Source of the DNA: Butyricimonas synergistica DSM 23225 | Lineage (GTDB): Bacteria; Bacteroidota; Bacteroidia; Bacteroidales; Marinifilaceae | Assembly: GCF_000379665.1 (NCBI RefSeq) | Contig: NZ_KB903359.1 | Span: 1,641,340-1,705,339, forward strand | Reading direction: 5' to 3' | DNA: 64,000 bases | In this document: positions 55,736 through 63,435 of the stretch, piece by piece | Layout of the letters: each line of letters begins with the position of its first letter | How positions within the stretch are numbered: the first letter of the stretch is position 1 | The notes under the pieces: generated by a model | Databases searched by the model: none | The model's input: only the letters and a program-made list of their open reading frames with translations | What the model was told of the DNA's origin: nothing | Program-made: the position numbers and the translations under genes

Positions 55736-55809
55736 GGTCCTATAGCTCAGCTGGTTAGAGCACCTGACTCATAATCAGGGAGTCCTTGGTTCAAGCCCAA
55801 GTGGGACCA
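55736..55809 (+). tRNA. tRNA with anticodon CAT (elongator Met or Ile2)
   Basis: Acceptor GGTCCTA pairs with TGGGACC, discriminator A, no CCA encoded. D stem GCTC/GAGC, anticodon stem CCTGA/TCAGG with loop CTCATAA, T stem CTTGG/CCAAG with loop TTCAAGC. G1-C72 pairing excludes initiator tRNA. Whether it carries Met or, after lysidine modification, Ile cannot be settled from sequence alone. Confidence 0.93.
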
Positions 55810-55821
55810 CTCCTTAAAAAT

Positions 55822-55853: not shown

Positions 55854-56251
55854 TTCTTTTGCTTTGAACACAAATCTGAACACAACTCCGCGCCAACTCA
55901 TTTCGGGTTCCTATGGCATACACCTGTGTTCATGCTCTTGTGATCAAATTTTGTAACTGAGGATTTGGAAATCGACGAGTTTCTTCTAAAACAAACGATG
56001 ACGAGTCAAAAGAAAATAACAGGAGAGAATGCTTTTTCTTTTGCCCAGCCATATATAATAGGTTTAGGTTTAGTCGGGCATATATAAAGCCCGAACCAAA
56101 CCAAACTGCTTAACCGCCGGGGCGTGGTCAGGGGGGCAAAGGTCATGATGACTGGGGAAAAGAAACTGCATTATCCGCATTTTTATGGTGGCAGCCGTGG
56201 AGATGCGGATTTTTCTTGCCCTATTATCACCGAGTTACGAAAAATTTGTTG

Positions 56252-56259
56252 TAACTTTG
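56252..56259 (+). promoter_or_regulatory. -7-like element at the head of the cargo operon
   Basis: TAACTTTG ends 3 bp before ATG 56263. If used, the mRNA would be leaderless or nearly so. Confidence 0.45.
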
Positions 56260-56262
56260 CGT

Positions 56263-57033
56263 ATGGCTACTCTCTCTAAAATATTGGTTTTTTGTGTTGG
56301 CTTTGCTCTTTCCTGTAACCTATGGGCGCAAAGTCAGTTAACTGATTGCAAAAAACAATCTGAACTTGACTCTATAATTTCTGAAACGGAGCGTCATTTT
56401 GGATGGAACGATGGCGCTTATTCTGCCAAGATTGCGAAGGATAAATGGCAATCCGGTGAAACGAAGCTATTATTGCTGGGTGGTATTGCTCCGGTTGTGT
56501 ATGTTGGGCAAGAGCAATTCAACAGAAAATTTGGAGTTGATTACGAAGACTTCGGGTGCATGGCATATTGTTCCGATAGACAAATGTCCGAATACAACAC
56601 CGTCATTATGGATTATCTCACTGTAAATTATGGCAGTGAATGGAGGAAGTACATCAGAAAAGACGTGCCGGGAGTTGATAAATATGGCACCGAAGCCTTC
56701 AAGGGAATGAAGTATGGCGAAAACGGAGTAGCTACTATAACGCTACCGGTTATATATATAGCATTAGGCAAAGCTGTTGAACAGAGCGACAAAGACGAAA
56801 TAGTTATAAAGGAACTGATTGGCTGCACCTCATCGACATCACTTGAATTCCTGTATCGTGGAAACAAATATTACATTCCGTTATCATGTAATAACGATAT
56901 TGAGGTAACTCCGGCAGAAAATGAACTGATTGAGGTAACAATCCGGGTATTTAACCCGAAAGTGTTTCACTACTCTAAAAAGACAATACCTTATCCGTAT
57001 TGCATTGTCGAATCCATTAATCTACTCAGATGA
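56263..57033 (+). CDS. Hypothetical exported protein, cargo gene 1
   Basis: 256 residues from ATG 56263 with a Sec signal (MATLSKILVFCVGFALSCNLWAQ). The upstream ATG at 56185 adds sequence with no signal character. The mature part is alpha/beta with no family I recognise; HFGWNDGAYSAKIAKDKW and ITLPVIYIALGKAVEQ are its most ordered stretches. Codon choice is unlike the chromosomal genes before the tRNA. First gene of a plus-strand run that continues to 61331. Confidence 0.7.
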   Translation: MATLSKILVFCVGFALSCNLWAQSQLTDCKKQSELDSIISETERHFGWNDGAYSAKIAKDKWQSGETKLLLLGGIAPVVYVGQEQFNRKFGVDYEDFGCMAYCSDRQMSEYNTVIMDYLTVNYGSEWRKYIRKDVPGVDKYGTEAFKGMKYGENGVATITLPVIYIALGKAVEQSDKDEIVIKELIGCTSSTSLEFLYRGNKYYIPLSCNNDIEVTPAENELIEVTIRVFNPKVFHYSKKTIPYPYCIVESINLLR

Positions 57034-57036
57034 GTT

Positions 57037-57276
57037 ATGAAAAAGTGGCATAAAATAATAGGCGTAGTCGCTTTCTGTTTAATTGGCGTGTTATTGGCAT
57101 ATTCAATATTTGAAATTGAACTTGCCTACATGTGGTATGACATCATATGCGATGCAAATCGGGGATTTTGGGATGCTCATCCCTTCTTTATCACATTGGA
57201 ATGCGCAGCTGTCAGTCTGTATTTCATTGTTCTTGCTCTGTTCATTTGCCTTTGGCGGAAAGGAGGCAGGCAATGA
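57037..57276 (+). CDS. Small two-helix membrane protein, cargo gene 2
   Basis: 79 residues: helix 1 at about 7-25 (IIGVVAFCLIGVLLAYSIF), a short extracytoplasmic loop with FWDAHPF, helix 2 at about 52-71 (LECAAVSLYFIVLALFICLW), then a basic tail RKGGRQ. That tail is encoded by an AGGAGG-containing stretch that also acts as the ribosome site of the next gene. The stop overlaps the next start as ATGA. Unknown family. Confidence 0.7.
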   Translation: MKKWHKIIGVVAFCLIGVLLAYSIFEIELAYMWYDIICDANRGFWDAHPFFITLECAAVSLYFIVLALFICLWRKGGRQ

Positions 57277-58586
57277 AGCAGATTTGGTACATAATAGGTG
57301 TGGCGTGCGTCATGATTTCGTCAATCGTGAGAATGGCTGATTCCCTTACGGATGTGCTGATTGCTGTCGGTGCAATTGCTGTTGTCGCATTGGTTATATG
57401 GCTGTTTGAGACAGGTAAAATCAGACTTAACGAACGCTTTGGCAAGATATTAAAGAAGATTGGTGTCGGCATTTTCGTAGTTGTTGGCATAGCCTACCTC
57501 GTGGCTATGGCAGGATTTGTCACATATAAAGTCGCAACGGAAGGTGACCGGCAGGGAATCATGCTGCTGGGTATTGCCTCCATAGCATTCGGTATTTCTT
57601 GGTATATCAGCAGATGGCGCAGACGGTGGGTGAAAATCCTTAAAACTTTTATGCCCAAAGACAAGATACGTCATGGTGACTGGAAGATACGAGAAAAGTA
57701 TTTCCAGACATTTGACTATGCCACCAATGCCCTGTATGGACTGCGAACCGCTGACGGCATTTTTGACGGACAGGCGAGAGTGTGGCTCGACCCGTCGGAC
57801 GTCGATAAAGATGCTTCTGCACGATTGGATGCGTTTGAGGCGATATTAGCAAGGCGTGGCATTAAAGCCAACTGCGCTCTGACACACATCCCCGGATGTA
57901 TCTACGCCGATATAGTTGCTGAAACCAATTACAAGTCAATGAACGGCAGCGGTATGGCTGCGTTCCGCGACGCGTTCCACGAACTTGACGGCATGAACTA
58001 TCAGGGTATATATTATGCCGAGTATCATGGAGAGTTGGGCACAATCTTTTTTGAAAGCAATGCCGGAAATGTTATAATCCGTGCGATAAGGACTGAGCCG
58101 AGAGAAGAATGTTATATTGACAACGACTGCGGGTTCCAATCGGAAGAAGCCCATTATTTCATTGAGCGCGGTGTCGATTGGACCGAGGGTACATACTCTT
58201 TGATTTCAGCCAAGGAGTTTTTCACGCTTTGGCGTGAGCGACTTGAATATAACGATAAAGACGACGCATATTCTTTCTTTGAGCAAGCATCGCTGATGTA
58301 TTTTGCTGCGGTAGCCAATGGCGACAAGAAAGAACAGACCAATAGCAGATGGGACATTGAAAACTCCGCCAAATATCTCATAATTCATGACGCAATAGAC
58401 GAAATGATTGAACTCATGACAATTTATGAACAGTCGATGTATTGGGCTTCACGACTGTTTGTAGATGTCATTCCGGAATATGCCCATGATACAGCCAATC
58501 GGTTGGTTGAATACAGCGACAATCCTGTGATTGTCTCGCGCACCAAAAGACTAATAGCACAATGGAAGAAAGGAGGCAAGCAATGA
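57273..58586 (+). CDS. Membrane protein with large soluble domain, cargo gene 3
   Basis: 437 residues from ATG 57273, chosen for the ATGA overlap with the previous stop and an AGGAGG 7 bp upstream. Three or four N-terminal membrane helices (to about 115) precede a cytoplasmic domain of about 310 residues (QTFDYATNALYGLRTADGIFDG; HELDGMNYQGIYYAEYHGELG). No recognised family. It ends in KKGGKQ, nearly the same tail as gene 2, again because the codons double as a Shine-Dalgarno sequence for the next gene. Confidence 0.75.
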   Translation: MKQIWYIIGVACVMISSIVRMADSLTDVLIAVGAIAVVALVIWLFETGKIRLNERFGKILKKIGVGIFVVVGIAYLVAMAGFVTYKVATEGDRQGIMLLGIASIAFGISWYISRWRRRWVKILKTFMPKDKIRHGDWKIREKYFQTFDYATNALYGLRTADGIFDGQARVWLDPSDVDKDASARLDAFEAILARRGIKANCALTHIPGCIYADIVAETNYKSMNGSGMAAFRDAFHELDGMNYQGIYYAEYHGELGTIFFESNAGNVIIRAIRTEPREECYIDNDCGFQSEEAHYFIERGVDWTEGTYSLISAKEFFTLWRERLEYNDKDDAYSFFEQASLMYFAAVANGDKKEQTNSRWDIENSAKYLIIHDAIDEMIELMTIYEQSMYWASRLFVDVIPEYAHDTANRLVEYSDNPVIVSRTKRLIAQWKKGGKQ

Positions 58587-59152
58587 AACTGACTGATAAA
58601 CGATATAGCAATCAGATTTTTAAGGGCACCTCATTTTGTAATGGAGGTGTTGCCGTGTGGTGGACTAAAAAGAGATTTGAGCGATGTCGATTTCTTGGAT
58701 GTGATTTTTCCGATGTCCTTGCAAGAGGGTGTCGATTTATAGAATGTGTTTTCAAAGGAGGTAAGTTACAGCATTTCTCTATGGGTGGACGGACTTCAGT
58801 CTTGTTGAGGAAAACTGTCTATATAGGTTGCACGTTTGAAAATGTCAAATTAAGAAGTCTCGGAATTGCAGATTTCATTGGTTGTACGTTTATTAACTGC
58901 GACTTCAATACCACATTCATTACCGCGGCATTTTCAAAGTGCAAATTTGTCGGAAAGATTTATGGATGCGTGTTTTGCGGGCCGAAGTTCGACAGCTATT
59001 ATTATGGGAATAAATTATCATTTTTAGTGTCTAATAAAGGACGATTGGAGGATGTTGACTTTTCCGAAGCCAGTCTTACTGACGTAGATTTTCGCGGAGG
59101 TATTGATTTATCAAAGGTTCTGATGCCTCATACTACCATAAACAGGATGTGA
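58583..59152 (+). CDS. Pentapeptide-repeat-like protein with MKLTD start, cargo gene 4
   Basis: 189 residues from ATG 58583, overlapping the previous stop as ATGA. Repeated aromatic-Cys-x-F/Asp units (FERCRFLGCDFSDV, CRFIECVFKGG, FIGCTFINCDF, LEDVDFSEASLTDVDF) form a right-handed pentapeptide beta-helix. Cys is unusually common at stacked positions. Such proteins bind other proteins or mimic DNA, with varied roles. It begins MKLTDKRY, the shared start also seen at 59820 and 60975. Confidence 0.8.
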   Translation: MKLTDKRYSNQIFKGTSFCNGGVAVWWTKKRFERCRFLGCDFSDVLARGCRFIECVFKGGKLQHFSMGGRTSVLLRKTVYIGCTFENVKLRSLGIADFIGCTFINCDFNTTFITAAFSKCKFVGKIYGCVFCGPKFDSYYYGNKLSFLVSNKGRLEDVDFSEASLTDVDFRGGIDLSKVLMPHTTINRM

Positions 59153-59154
59153 TT

Positions 59155-59823
59155 ATGAAGATACAGGACGTTAAAAAACAAATTTTCTCCACCTTGGAGC
59201 CCTTCGCTTCCGCTAATGGTTTTAAGATTCTCAAAGGTCGATTTGCATTGAGTCGAAAAGTCGGCAGTCGTACTGATGAAATATTCTTAACTTATTGTTC
59301 ATGGGGTTTTGAGATAAACATATTTCCGTATGTCAGTGTGGACTATGGAGAGATAACCACAATATGCAATGAATGTGGCTTCACTCTGAACCATTCTGCA
59401 TTTATCAATCTTTTATTGCTTCAAAGAATAAAACTGCAAGGATTTAATCCGGATTTAAGATGGAAAATGCAGGTAGCCAAAACAGACCGCTTTATTCTTT
59501 CAGACAATGAGTATGACGACTACAATCGGCTTGATATGGGGCTGTCTCCATTACTTCCTATTGCATTGGATTTTCTCTCTCAATATGACAGTATTGATTC
59601 AATAGACCGGCTATTCAATACTATGCCAATAGAACAATATAGTCCATATTGTTCCGGTCTTGATACTCATTGTATGGTTGGACTAATTTCTGCCAGACAC
59701 TCCAATAACGCTGATTACGAAAACGTTAAACGAATGTACCAACGAATCGTGAAAAAAGAAGATTTCACAAGCGAGATGAAGTCCTCTTTTTCACGAGTTG
59801 TTGCTTATCTTGAACAAATATGA
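59155..59823 (+). CDS. Hypothetical cytoplasmic protein, cargo gene 5
   Basis: 222 residues from ATG 59155; a GTG at 59149 overlaps the previous stop and is also possible. KIQDVKKQIFSTLEPFASANGFKILKGRF, then EIFLTYCSWGFEINIFPYVSV, suggests a small alpha/beta domain of the size and type seen among immunity proteins, but I recognise no family. Its stop overlaps the next start as ATGA (59820-59823). Confidence 0.7.
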   Translation: MKIQDVKKQIFSTLEPFASANGFKILKGRFALSRKVGSRTDEIFLTYCSWGFEINIFPYVSVDYGEITTICNECGFTLNHSAFINLLLLQRIKLQGFNPDLRWKMQVAKTDRFILSDNEYDDYNRLDMGLSPLLPIALDFLSQYDSIDSIDRLFNTMPIEQYSPYCSGLDTHCMVGLISARHSNNADYENVKRMYQRIVKKEDFTSEMKSSFSRVVAYLEQI

Positions 59824-60896
59824 AGCTGACTGATACAAAATATGTGATTATCTGTGGGTTGATGCTGTTGGTGTGCATAAGTATTTATGCTCGTAATGTC
59901 AGTGTCTGCGGACGTGTGGTTGACAAATATAATGGCGAGCCGCTGATAGGGGCTTGCGTATATGCCGCTTATACCGATAAAAAAGACAGTCTAATGGCAG
60001 TAGCGGATACTGTGGGATCGTTCACGGTGTCAGTTCCGGAGAATCAGCTATTACGATTTCAATATATGGGTTACAAGGATACATTTGCTCTCGCAAAGTC
60101 AAACCTACTAATTGAACTGGCAGATGGTGGAGAGTGGAAAAATCCATTGTGGATTATTGACAGCGTAATCGCTGACGTGAACTACCCGGATATATGGTAT
60201 CAATCGCCATTTGGTGATATCACATTGGAATCATTAGTCTGTGAAGCGATGCCTGTGTTGCGGGAGGATGATATAGAAAAAGTACATTTGATAGATTCGA
60301 CTATATGCTTCGGAAACATTCTATACACCGGATTATGTCGGGTAGATACAAAACCGACCACCGTGCAGGTAATTGTTGACGGTGAAAATTGTGGCATAAT
60401 AACGGAACGAGCTGGGCGATTGGCAGGAGAAACCGGGGCTATAAAATATGCCTCGAATATCCTGAGGATAGACAGTGTAGTAGATGCCGTAGCCATTGAC
60501 ACCAAGAAACTTTTACTTATACCCACTGAGTATTATAAAAAGGCTGAGAAAATGTTGGTCGTGACTACGGATCACCATTACCCCTCTGTGGCTGAATCTG
60601 GTTTTCTGCCATATCAATATGACAATGGCGATGATTATGTCTCTGATGGACGGTATCGAATTGTGGATAGTGATGGAAGAATAGGATATGCCACAGCAAA
60701 CAATGCGGTGATAATACCTCCTCGTTTTGCATTTGGTTTTCCTTTTCATAATGGCCTTGCAAGGGTTACGAACAGCGGTCATCTTGAAACTGTAATCGGA
60801 AGTGATGGAGAATACCACTATTGGGTAAGCAATAGCTGGTATTGGATTGATAAAATGGGCAACCGACTTGGAATGGAAGATGAAACCGAACGATAA
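59820..60896 (+). CDS. WG-repeat-like protein with carboxypeptidase-like domain and MKLTD start, cargo gene 6
   Basis: 358 residues. MKLTDTKYVIICGLMLLVCISIYA combines the shared MKLTD start with a signal or anchor helix. A carboxypeptidase-regulatory-like beta-sandwich follows (VSVCGRVVDKYNGEPLIGACVYA, FQYMGYKDTF). Near the C-terminus RYRIVDSDGRIGYATANNAVIIPPRFAFGFPFHNGLARV is a WG-type repeat, with a second, weaker one after it. Probably exported; role unknown. Translationally coupled to gene 5. Confidence 0.75.
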   Translation: MKLTDTKYVIICGLMLLVCISIYARNVSVCGRVVDKYNGEPLIGACVYAAYTDKKDSLMAVADTVGSFTVSVPENQLLRFQYMGYKDTFALAKSNLLIELADGGEWKNPLWIIDSVIADVNYPDIWYQSPFGDITLESLVCEAMPVLREDDIEKVHLIDSTICFGNILYTGLCRVDTKPTTVQVIVDGENCGIITERAGRLAGETGAIKYASNILRIDSVVDAVAIDTKKLLLIPTEYYKKAEKMLVVTTDHHYPSVAESGFLPYQYDNGDDYVSDGRYRIVDSDGRIGYATANNAVIIPPRFAFGFPFHNGLARVTNSGHLETVIGSDGEYHYWVSNSWYWIDKMGNRLGMEDETER

Positions 60897-60974
60897 AAAT
60901 TCCGAGATAAGAATCTACCAAGGCGTATGGAAAAATACGTTTTACGACAAATCTAATCACTTGCACATTGAATA

Positions 60975-61331
60975 ATGAAACTGACTGATAAACGATTTTG
61001 GATATGGTGGCTTGTGCTTCTCATCTTGGCGATTGTGTGTTGTATGGCAGGAGGTTGGAACGAGGATACAGCGTTGCTCGGTGCAGCTTATGCGCTGTCG
61101 CTGCTATCGACATGGCTATGTCACAGAGTCAGACCGAGAGCTGCGTTTGGCAACCTGATTGTGATGATATCCTATAATGCCATATTGAGTTACAATCTTG
61201 TCTTCAATAGCCACTATGGAGCCGGATTGACATGGTGGCTTTTCATACTGCTGCTGAACACCATCCATTCAATCTGTTTGCTGATTTTTATCCTCATATC
61301 CTCTAAAAAAACGGAAAACTGCCGAGAGTGA
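60975..61331 (+). CDS. Small multi-pass membrane protein with MKLTD start, cargo gene 7
   Basis: 118 residues: about four membrane helices after MKLTDKRFWIWW (LVLLILAIVCCMAGG; LLGAAYALSLLSTWL; FGNLIVMISYNAILSYN; WWLFILLLNTIHSICLLIFILI) and a basic tail. 78 bp separate it from gene 6, so it is not overlapped like the others. Its stop codon lies within the left arm of the terminator. Unknown family; the MKLTDKRF start is shared with genes 4 and 6. Confidence 0.72.
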   Translation: MKLTDKRFWIWWLVLLILAIVCCMAGGWNEDTALLGAAYALSLLSTWLCHRVRPRAAFGNLIVMISYNAILSYNLVFNSHYGAGLTWWLFILLLNTIHSICLLIFILISSKKTENCRE

Positions 61332-62102: not shown

Positions 62103-63059
62103 TCAGATTCTTCTTGATTTGCGTTTACGTTTGGCTTCTTCTTTCTTGATGGTGTTTTGAAACGCCTGTTCCTCCGGGTCGAAGCCGGGGCCGAGAGTGA
62201 ACAGATTTCCGATTGCCCCGACGGTGGCTTCAATCACATCTTCCACAAGTGAGGACTTCTGCGTCGGTGTATATTCGACTGTTACTTTGGGGCGCGTCGT
62301 AGTGTAATCAGACTGTTGTTGCCCATGTCTGCGGTTAAACTCAAAGAGGTTGTTCAGGCGGCGATATGTGAACGCACGGTCTATTTTAGACCCGTTGACC
62401 GTTATATCACCGTCTGTAAATTTCACGCCGATGTGTTTGCCTGTGTTGTGATCGTCATGAAATTTTACCTCAATTCCGGCACAGGCGAGGCGTCGCAAGA
62501 ACTCATCCCACGACTTACAGCCATAAATCGCCTGACTGATCCGCTCCTTAAATACCGGAATTATGTCCTCGTATTTCTGTTTCAGCGGCGAGTATGTGAG
62601 TCCGTATTTGTCCTTGATAGCCTTTACAACACGGTCGCTGCGCCTGAAATTGTTGCGTTCGTTGACTGCCTTGCCTGACATATCCACACGGTTATAGACG
62701 ATATGAAAATGCGGATGTTCGGTTTCCAGATGGCGCACGACAAGATACTGGGTGTTCTTTATTTCCATGCCTTCCATATACTCTTTTGCGAGCTGAGCCA
62801 TGAATTCATCGGTCAGTCTTGACGCATCGGCGGTGTCAAAACTGATGGAAATATGTCCTGCCGGATTCTCCTTGTCGGGCATAAATCCATGTATCGCTTC
62901 AAATGACTGCACCATTTTCGCATAGCCGGAGGTGAAAATATTTTCGCTTCCGATGATGCGCCATGTGTCGGGGGTATATTCTTTGGGGTCGTGGAACTGG
63001 CGCGTCACATACCCCACGACATCGTGAAACGTGCCGCTTTTAAGTATTCTTGCAAACAT
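62103..63059 (-). CDS. Relaxase/mobilization nuclease (MobB-like)
   Basis: 318 residues. MFARILKSGTFHDVVGYVTRQ is the N-terminal strand carrying the catalytic Tyr region. HPHFHIVYNRVD is the His-rich metal motif of MOBP-type relaxases, and GHISISFDTADASRLTDEFM is also typical. It nicks one strand at oriT and stays attached to the 5' end during transfer. Its start overlaps the end of the upstream mob gene by 20 bp. Full length for the Bacteroidetes MobB group. Confidence 0.9.
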   Translation of the reverse strand: MFARILKSGTFHDVVGYVTRQFHDPKEYTPDTWRIIGSENIFTSGYAKMVQSFEAIHGFMPDKENPAGHISISFDTADASRLTDEFMAQLAKEYMEGMEIKNTQYLVVRHLETEHPHFHIVYNRVDMSGKAVNERNNFRRSDRVVKAIKDKYGLTYSPLKQKYEDIIPVFKERISQAIYGCKSWDEFLRRLACAGIEVKFHDDHNTGKHIGVKFTDGDITVNGSKIDRAFTYRRLNNLFEFNRRHGQQQSDYTTTRPKVTVEYTPTQKSSLVEDVIEATVGAIGNLFTLGPGFDPEEQAFQNTIKKEEAKRKRKSRRI

Positions 63060-63435
63060 AGTCAGTCTCTTTATTAGGTCTCAATTTTTTGAGAATGTCA
63101 AACATCTTATCGATGACGGCGGCTAATTTATTGGCCGCATTGCGAAGTTTGAGCTGATGAAAACAGGTCATTGCCTGATTGAAATCGGAACTGAGATTTA
63201 GTATTCCTTTGGCAATTTCCTTTTCAATCTCGCTTAGGCGACTGACGATAGTGAGACGGAAAGCACCGTGTCTGACATACTCCGCCATCTTTACTCCGGC
63301 GGCTTTTGACCGCTCCAGAAGGTCGGAGTATTCTGCATCGTTCAGTTTAATTGTCACCACATGGGTGCGCTTCTCATCGGTCGGTTTTGAGGGACGACCG
63401 CCCTTTCTGACAGTTGGTTTACTCATAGTAGACAT
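63040..63435 (-). CDS. Relaxosome accessory protein (MobC family; MobA in Bacteroides naming)
   Basis: 131 residues. A ribbon-helix-helix-like N-terminus (RTHVVTIKLNDAEYSDLLERSKAAGVKMAEYVR) is followed by a helical tail with LNQA-type motif (SSDFNQAMTCFHQL). Such proteins bind oriT and help the relaxase open the duplex. First mob gene after a 174-bp region with nested inverted repeats that I take as oriT. ATG 63426 is an alternative start. Confidence 0.87.
   Translation of the reverse strand: MSTMSKPTVRKGGRPSKPTDEKRTHVVTIKLNDAEYSDLLERSKAAGVKMAEYVRHGAFRLTIVSRLSEIEKEIAKGILNLSSDFNQAMTCFHQLKLRNAANKLAAVIDKMFDILKKLRPNKETDYVCKNT

Follow-up and report, generated by a model that had tools for sequence, protein, structure and literature searches.

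A shared gene start of about 30 bp as the apparent joint for swapping neighbouring genes in a probable orphan immunity array of Butyricimonas synergistica

In integrons, interchangeable cassette genes are found at a repeated site that is noncoding and lies 3' of the cassette gene. Among Bacteroidales, the closest described systems are the recombinase-associated acquired interbacterial defence (rAID) islands, the biogenesis mechanism of which is called an area of active research (PMC12247911). For the orphan immunity arrays of the type VI secretion system (T6SS) in Vibrio cholerae, homologous and homology-facilitated illegitimate recombination have been proposed, without specific integration sites (PMC5361080). 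Here we describe a 64,000-nt stretch of the genome of Butyricimonas synergistica DSM 23225 (contig NZ_KB903359.1, positions 1,641,340 to 1,705,339; hereafter the window), in which a mobile element carries a co-oriented array of seven genes (56263-61331). Three of these genes share their first bases, and the comparison of this shared start across many loci points to a way in which bacteria could rearrange their sets of protective genes.

A preliminary description of the window had reported that the genes at 58583, 59820 and 60975 all start with MKLTD and that their first bases are nearly the same. The three starts are present at these positions, as ATGAAACTGACTGATAAACGATAT at 58583, ATGAAGCTGACTGATACAAAATAT at 59820 and ATGAAACTGACTGATAAACGATTT at 60975, and the first and third copies share 23 of their 24 bases. 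We wrote a degenerate 24-base pattern from these starts; with three mismatches or fewer, it matched the window exactly three times and matched none of 100 dinucleotide-preserving shuffles. The whole genome (4.77 Mb in 16 contigs) contained five matches, the three in the window and two in one array on contig C2, and the same pattern read backwards gave no match in the genome. The starts are thus commoner than expected by chance, and a chance origin is rejected. Three features had been overlooked in the preliminary description: a fourth, degenerate start at 60880 that leads a relic of 31 residues, the gene at 59155, which stands between the first two shared-start genes and lacks the shared start, and a recurrent 3' gene end before 58583 that is also seen at the end of gene 57037.

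For a wider comparison we used 490 array-gene start sites, of which 114 carry the motif (up to 8 mismatches in 27 bases; 93 of them with at most 4) and 376 do not; the loci were selected for holding the motif, and near-identical loci were only partly removed. Genes were called by a longest open reading frame (ORF) heuristic, and families (numbered F below, as loci are numbered L) were built by single linkage, such that F0 and F5 lump different bodies. The consensus from 112 distinct sites with up to 6 mismatches is ATGAAACTGACCGATAAACGATTTTGGATA, about 30 bp in length. Its left edge is sharp, with 1.80 bits at the A of the ATG as compared to 0.18 bits one base earlier, and on the right the conservation fades after about +29. 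Codon choice in the motif at 102 sites is skewed: leucine is encoded by CTG in 73 of 90 cases (frequency in gene bodies 0.15, p = 4e-43), arginine by CGA in 70 of 81 (0.20, p = 7e-38) and aspartate by GAT in 92 of 93 (0.67). This skew shows that the motif is conserved as DNA.

The motif also overlaps the end of the preceding gene. Frames open over 90 nt upstream were recorded at the same 102 sites, yielding 102 frames in a count to which a site may contribute several times or not at all. Of these, 38 end at +14 (TAA), 27 at +1 (ATGA), 9 at +11 and 2 at +7; another 24 stop no later than the ATG, and 2 remain open. Since most upstream frames stop inside the motif, it usually serves both as the end of one gene and as the beginning of the following one. 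The window starts at 58583 and 59820 are of the ATGA type, and gene 59820 ends at a TAA inside the degenerate copy at 60880. Other recurrent ends were observed in the arrays. A second start, similar to MKKWQKILGV, occurs at 22 sites with 9 DNA clusters of bodies, and a third, similar to MKTSLRYKIV, at 7 sites with 5 DNA clusters; these are counts at the DNA level, and some of the bodies look homologous. A common 3' end, GCGGAAAGGAGGCAAGCA followed by ATGA, encodes as a rule (R/K)KGG(K/R)(Q/R) and a stop; one copy precedes 58583. It was found at 23 of the 490 array junctions (up to 4 mismatches in 18), behind 12 upstream DNA clusters, and at no junction in each of two offset controls.

The genes on the two sides of the motif are combined in many ways. 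Across the 114 motif sites, 50 upstream and 41 downstream DNA clusters form 98 different pairs. Of the 25 upstream clusters with several members, 21 occur with two or more downstream clusters; conversely, this applies to 17 of the 21 multi-member downstream clusters. A family of diverged homologues may be divided among several DNA clusters, and the figure of 41 overstates the number of unrelated bodies; the bodies were therefore regrouped at the protein level after removal of the first 12 residues (E up to 1e-3). The 114 sites then fell into 22 groups. On this basis, 20 of the 25 upstream clusters with several members were paired with at least two groups, and among the 16 groups with several members 14 were paired with at least two upstream clusters. 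Other counts at this level were 19 groups for 116 distinct bodies and 14 groups for the 96 bodies with at most 4 mismatches; a looser limit (E of 1) merged nearly all bodies, which we took for chance links.

The two halves of the motif have different partners, as estimated from 98 sites by permutation tests that take the sites as independent. In columns 3-13, sites behind the same upstream gene showed 0.72 of the mismatch in shuffled data (p = 0.0015), as compared to 0.91 for sites before the same downstream body (p = 0.14). In columns 16-29, the ratio was 0.35 for the same downstream body (p = 0.0005, the floor of the test) and 0.90 for the same upstream gene (p = 0.15). The upstream comparisons, repeated with the requirement of different protein groups, gave 0.76 (p = 0.005) and 0.95 (p = 0.30). 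The left half thus varies with the upstream gene and the right half with the downstream gene, which places the crossovers inside the motif. Close pairs give bounds on single crossovers that are scattered between columns 3 and 29, although mutations blur them; with such a spread, no one fixed crossover point is supported.

Individual loci display the same exchanges. Cassette one (58583-59835) stands beside other neighbours in loci L026, L074, L082 and L111, with homologous blocks that end at column 15 of the next motif. In L026, cassettes one and three are joined and cassette two is exactly absent; the joint carries ATGAAG, as does the window start at 59820, while its right half is that of the start of the third gene, with C in place of T at column 11. 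For gene 57273, the homologous blocks end at 58587 in L074 and L096 and at 58604 in L081, and the segment 59820-61109 recurs at 98% identity in L073, from a genome of family f26. Elements L111 and L112 contain different inner cassettes, flanked on either side by sequence of 96-98% identity. Five copies of one small protein that lack the motif are, from nt 21 on, 97.8-100% identical to the copy in L075, where the first 20 nt differ (MTHKLDVFWI versus MQENNKQFWI) and the start matches the motif poorly (8 mismatches). A clearer example of swapped first codons, though between more diverged sequences, is MKPVYRIFWI in L093 versus MKLTDKQFWI in L079 (78.6% identity from nt 21 on). The relic in the window is itself composite: positions 60880-60944 correspond to the first 65 nt of cassette F24 (93.8% identity to L112, L084 and L085), and positions 60945-60990 to the tail of cassette F68 plus the next motif (100% to L069:10133-10178). 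We read 60880-60975 as the probable trace of three or more joins within some 100 bp, and L073 carries the same relic at 99% identity. A further chimeric cassette, at L094:6120, has an Imm32-family start that runs into cassette F60.

Several observations weigh against this account. Single columns deviate from the two-halves pattern: column 4 goes with the downstream body, column 17 with the upstream gene and column 3 with both. Alignments of cassette one continue past the motif, to 59860-59870, in L090, L094 and L108, and the crossover between L111 and L112 may lie in the tail of the upstream gene. Rearrangement is also seen at starts that lack the motif, in 26 of 62 and 44 of 66 multi-member DNA clusters; the adaptor, as we call the motif, is therefore not required. 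At 27-30 bp it is also short for RecA, for which one study cites 40-70 nt in other bacteria (PMC9484751). Modular swapping at the 5' end, one of the explanations put forward in the preliminary description, is nevertheless borne out by the different partners of the motif halves and by homology blocks that break within the motif. Judged from these sequence comparisons, the shared start of about 30 bp is a joint at which neighbouring genes are swapped.

The genes that are joined in this way differ in composition from their surroundings. Motif-started genes have a median GC content of 0.385, as compared to 0.477 for genes outside array runs in the same loci. Of 124 motif-started genes, 82% have a GC content below 41%, a threshold associated with rAID islands, as do 61% of 547 genes in array runs and 19% of 699 others; in the window array, four of seven genes are below this value. 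The 66 co-oriented runs with a motif gene have a median of 7 genes and a maximum of 25 (same-direction flanking backbone genes counted), with a median product length of 192 aa. A Pfam scan covered 30 proteins, 22 of them from array families, of which six were over the cut-off: Imm32 (F5, 1.8e-19), DUF4304 (F25, 6e-20), DUF2750 (F67, 1.8e-15), DKNYY (F58), CarbopepD_reg_2 (F6) and, just over, TPR (F73). We take DUF4304 and DUF2750 to be immunity-associated families. An Imm32 domain is also fused behind an MKKWQ membrane start in a chimeric cassette (L084:2356-2835).

Two array families have relatives beside toxin-like modules. Gene 59155 of the window (F13) has two distant relatives (6.9e-8 and 8.9e-7) in L151, a locus with a C-terminal module and similar pieces that we label Rhs-like from core motifs; one of these pieces has a Matrixin-like metallopeptidase match just over the cut-off. 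For F46, a family outside the window, a relative (3.1e-14) at L173:685-1494 overlaps the end of an Rhs-like C-terminal module. The Rhs-like locus itself (L151:7008-14498) consists of repeated C-terminal module pieces with interspersed small genes. The presence of immunity-like families and of relatives beside Rhs-like modules makes it probable that the array consists of orphan immunity genes, and the immunity system offered in the preliminary description is plausible to this extent. The same data can be set against an alternative in which the array shuffles as described but the cargo serves other ends than toxin immunity, for example as modifiers of the envelope or of phage receptors, or as genes serving the element. 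In its favour, many of the products resemble small membrane proteins or lipoproteins, 16 of the 22 scanned array-family proteins had no Pfam match over the cut-off, no Pfam immunity model matches the three shared-start proteins of the window, and PADLOC gave no match for 10 proteins. Furthermore, the F46 and F13 relatives are distant, and Pfam gave no match, and no Rhs model, for the L151 module. In view of the Imm32, DUF4304 and DUF2750 families, the Imm32 fusion and the neighbours of the F46 and F13 relatives, we consider this alternative unlikely.

Other searches of the cargo were negative. NCBIfam matched only two of 10 proteins, in all cases far under the cut-off; the 59155 family had no match in a profile search of the PDB and no second copy in its own genome (one match, to itself); and no effector was recognised among the array families scanned. 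On contig C10 of the same genome, a further immunity-like cluster, of co-oriented low-GC genes without the adaptor (L130:6902-10053), includes a SUKH_6 protein (1.5e-24). It came up in a SUKH_6 search for a reference rAID island, which revealed nothing identifiable as rAID.

The elements that carry the arrays are of at least two layouts. In type I elements the order is a tyrosine recombinase, a RhuM/Fic-like gene, the array, DUF6043, DUF3987 and a relaxase, with the recombinase upstream of the array and co-oriented with it; type II elements have another layout. When grouped at 50% identity, the 25 tyrosine recombinases in the loci and the window integrase separate into 11 clusters. The window integrase has a match to just one of these 25 (at 22%), and the recombinases scanned match the general Phage_int_SAM_5, Phage_integrase and Arm-DNA-bind_5 models. 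A dedicated site-specific recombinase that uses the start motif of about 28 bp as its recombination site, as in integrons or as the rAID name implies, would fit a motif about as long as the two-armed core of a tyrosine recombinase, the nearly invariant motif centre GATAA and the recombinase ahead of type I arrays. We regard it as distinctly improbable, given the spread of the crossover bounds, the joints that fall at other sequences too, and the same cassettes near recombinases of clusters below 50% identity. The occurrence of the same cassettes near unrelated integrases argues against an element recombinase as the shuffler. The motif was also considered as the attachment site of the window integrase and rejected, since the repeat of this integrase is a tRNA end unlike the motif. 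Together, the unrelated integrases and the varying crossover points lead us to favour short-homology recombination over a dedicated recombinase.

A common translation signal had been the second explanation in the preliminary description. In its fuller form, the shared start would be a regulatory or translational signal (a target of a small RNA or protein, or a translation ramp) selected gene by gene, and the appearance of swapping a by-product of operon shuffling at gene borders. The motif begins exactly at the ATG and does overlap the preceding stop, an arrangement that suits coupled translation (PMC6728339). As a sole cause this signal is rejected, because 376 of the 490 co-arrayed genes lack the motif and its codons are fixed as DNA; selection per gene also leaves unexplained why the left half follows the upstream gene, and we give this account very little weight. 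That the three window proteins are diverged full-length homologues can practically be dismissed, even though all three begin with MKLTD, since in blastp among the window array proteins the 58583 and 60975 products have only residues 1-8 in common and the 59820 product has no significant match to either, and since the Pfam matches differ (pentapeptide repeats, PF00805, 1.7e-10, for 58583; CarboxypepD_reg-like at 3.2e-07 and one WG repeat at 4.6e-04, both under the curated cut-offs, for 59820; no family over the cut-off for 60975), consistent with the unrelated proteins of the preliminary description.

Taken as a whole, the explanation that we find likely is that these genes are cassettes of a cargo array of mobilizable elements, that the adaptor is their joint, and that the cargo is orphan immunity against polymorphic toxins delivered by contact. 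Crossovers within the adaptor would bring upstream genes together with new downstream bodies while stop, start and frame are kept. They may arise when the transfer of an element brings two arrays together, through ordinary homologous recombination or through homology-facilitated illegitimate recombination. Any gene newly placed after an adaptor would itself become exchangeable, by which the adaptor could spread over unrelated bodies, and the overlapping stop and start would couple translation. Selection by the toxins of neighbouring cells may keep the repertoire changing. A broader version can be put forward tentatively: 5' adaptors (MKLTDKRFW and MKKWQKIxGV) and a 3' adaptor (KGGKQ and a stop) might act as standard parts through which unrelated immunity genes could be exchanged between different mobile elements and between bacterial families in the absence of a dedicated recombinase, and the adaptor might spread by making its bearers exchangeable. 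The model gives clear predictions on RecA dependence, on the spread of crossovers and on the tolerance of new genes behind the adaptor.

The element in the window is integrated at a tRNA-Met gene (CAT anticodon; 55736..55810, forward strand; ARAGORN, L014:7076-7150; Rfam tRNA at 55736-55809, 68.8 bits). The left attachment repeat (55782..55811), 30 bp at the 3' end of the tRNA, has an identical copy outside the window at L153:8197-8226, near an integrase gene (L153:6596-7945; Phage_int_SAM_5 3.9e-11, Phage_integrase under the cut-off). By these coordinates, the element measures about 16.1 kb between the outer repeat ends and extends beyond the window, with the array at its left end. Between the repeats are the array, mobilization genes, a Toprim/primase-like gene and a weak AAA_25 match. 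A MobA/VirD2-type relaxase (62103..63059; PF03432, 1.9e-30) and a NikA-like mobilization protein (63040..63435; PF21983, 2e-10) are encoded on the reverse strand. With integrase, relaxase and attachment repeats at tRNA-Met all present, it is an integrative mobilizable element; no type IV secretion genes were noticed among its ORFs, for which no dedicated search was run. The proposal in the preliminary description that such cassette arrays lie on mobile elements is supported by these features and by the relatives on type I and II elements.

All array genes are on the forward strand. The first (56263..57033; 256 aa, start MATLSKILVF, GC content 0.40) had no PADLOC match. It starts MATLSKILVFCVGFALSCNLWAQS (window 56185-56350), and the same leader stands on a different body in F47, for example at L073:4967; TTTGCGT directly before the start, with almost no leader, presumably resembles a Bacteroidales promoter element. 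It is followed by a gene for a membrane-like protein of 79 aa (57037..57276) with the second recurrent start (MKKWHKIIGV) and the end KGGRQ, and by a gene for 437 aa (57273..58586) that ends in KGGKQ and whose stop overlaps the next ATG. This overlap belongs to the 3' adaptor GAAGAAAGGAGGCAAGCA plus ATGA (58565..58586). The shared-start genes stand at the end of the array. The pentapeptide-repeat protein of 189 aa (58583..59152) begins with adaptor copy 1 (58583..58612) and is followed by the candidate immunity gene of family F13 (59155..59823; 222 aa). The gene for 358 aa with weak CarboxypepD_reg-like and WG-repeat matches (59820..60896) begins with copy 2, the variant GATACAAAATAT (59820..59849). 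The degenerate adaptor and its 31-codon relic occupy 60880..60975, and copy 3 (60975..61004) starts the last cassette, a small membrane-like protein of 118 aa (60975..61331). The type I arrays L070 and L073, and probably L075, L079 and L112, end in a shortened copy of this last family; similarity to the window ends at 61109 in L070 and L073, and the copies in L070, L075, L079 and L112 are 62-67 aa long.

The distribution of the adaptor was surveyed with a 27-base version of the motif (up to 2 mismatches). It was found in 3 of 96 genomes among the relatives, namely the window genome, one of its genus and one of family f26, which we take to be Muribaculaceae and which differs from the family of the window genome (f1); the named relatives are Bacteroidales. 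Within f26 it occurred in 36 of 297 genomes (13 of 30 genera), and among 393 genomes drawn across the order in six: the window genome, two of f26, two in which it starts related membrane-like proteins (L155 and L156) and one that looks like chance (L154). The pattern read backwards gave no match among the relatives or in f26 and one in the order-wide set. The narrower motif pattern had no exact match in IMG/VR, and 58583-61331 had no blastn match in PLSDB; phage or plasmid carriage was rejected on these two results, a search that did not extend to the collection of phage records. The second array of the same genome, on contig C2 (L013:8013-10791), is small and partly decayed. It includes an Imm32-family gene, its three motif-like starts lead ORFs of 46, 13 and 19 residues, and a tyrosine recombinase gene lies a few kb away. 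As a simple probe, the motif may point to further candidate immunity genes in Muribaculaceae and neighbouring families.

In the literature examined, which left out most subscription papers, we found no paper on the string MKLTDKRFW and no mention of an adaptor that is common to unrelated genes and overlaps the previous stop. Integrons are alike in having interchangeable genes at a repeated site, but the repeat described here starts at the ATG and is coding, and the recombinases match general tyrosine-integrase models. The tandem immunity paralogues esaG and tipC of Firmicutes also recombine at conserved blocks, including the 5' and 3' ends; they are paralogues of one family with esaG blocks of about 55-100 nt, whereas the adaptors here measure 18-30 nt and join unrelated families (PMC9484751). 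The arrays of V. cholerae are mosaics of immunity genes as well, which stand in T6SS clusters behind effector genes, in contrast to the short adaptor common to unrelated genes in the present arrays (PMC5361080). The rAID islands resemble the arrays in their co-oriented, short and mostly low-GC genes, some of them immunity-like, in their conserved joint sequences and in their occurrence in Bacteroidales, and the type I elements share the tyrosine recombinase ahead of the array (PMC12247911). Compared with rAID by that description only, the joint here differs in being coding, at the start codon and usually combined with the previous stop. In the window, moreover, the integrase gene and the array lie at opposite ends of the element, and the integrase repeat is a tRNA end; since no recombinase heads the array, we do not class it as rAID. 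The comparison bears on the way in which gut Bacteroidales acquire and rearrange the genes of their orphan immunity islands, at joints that are visible base by base. Immunity arrays as such are known; what appears to be new is the use of short stop/start adaptors as shuffling joints in an array of the orphan immunity type, an assignment that we infer here from its cargo.

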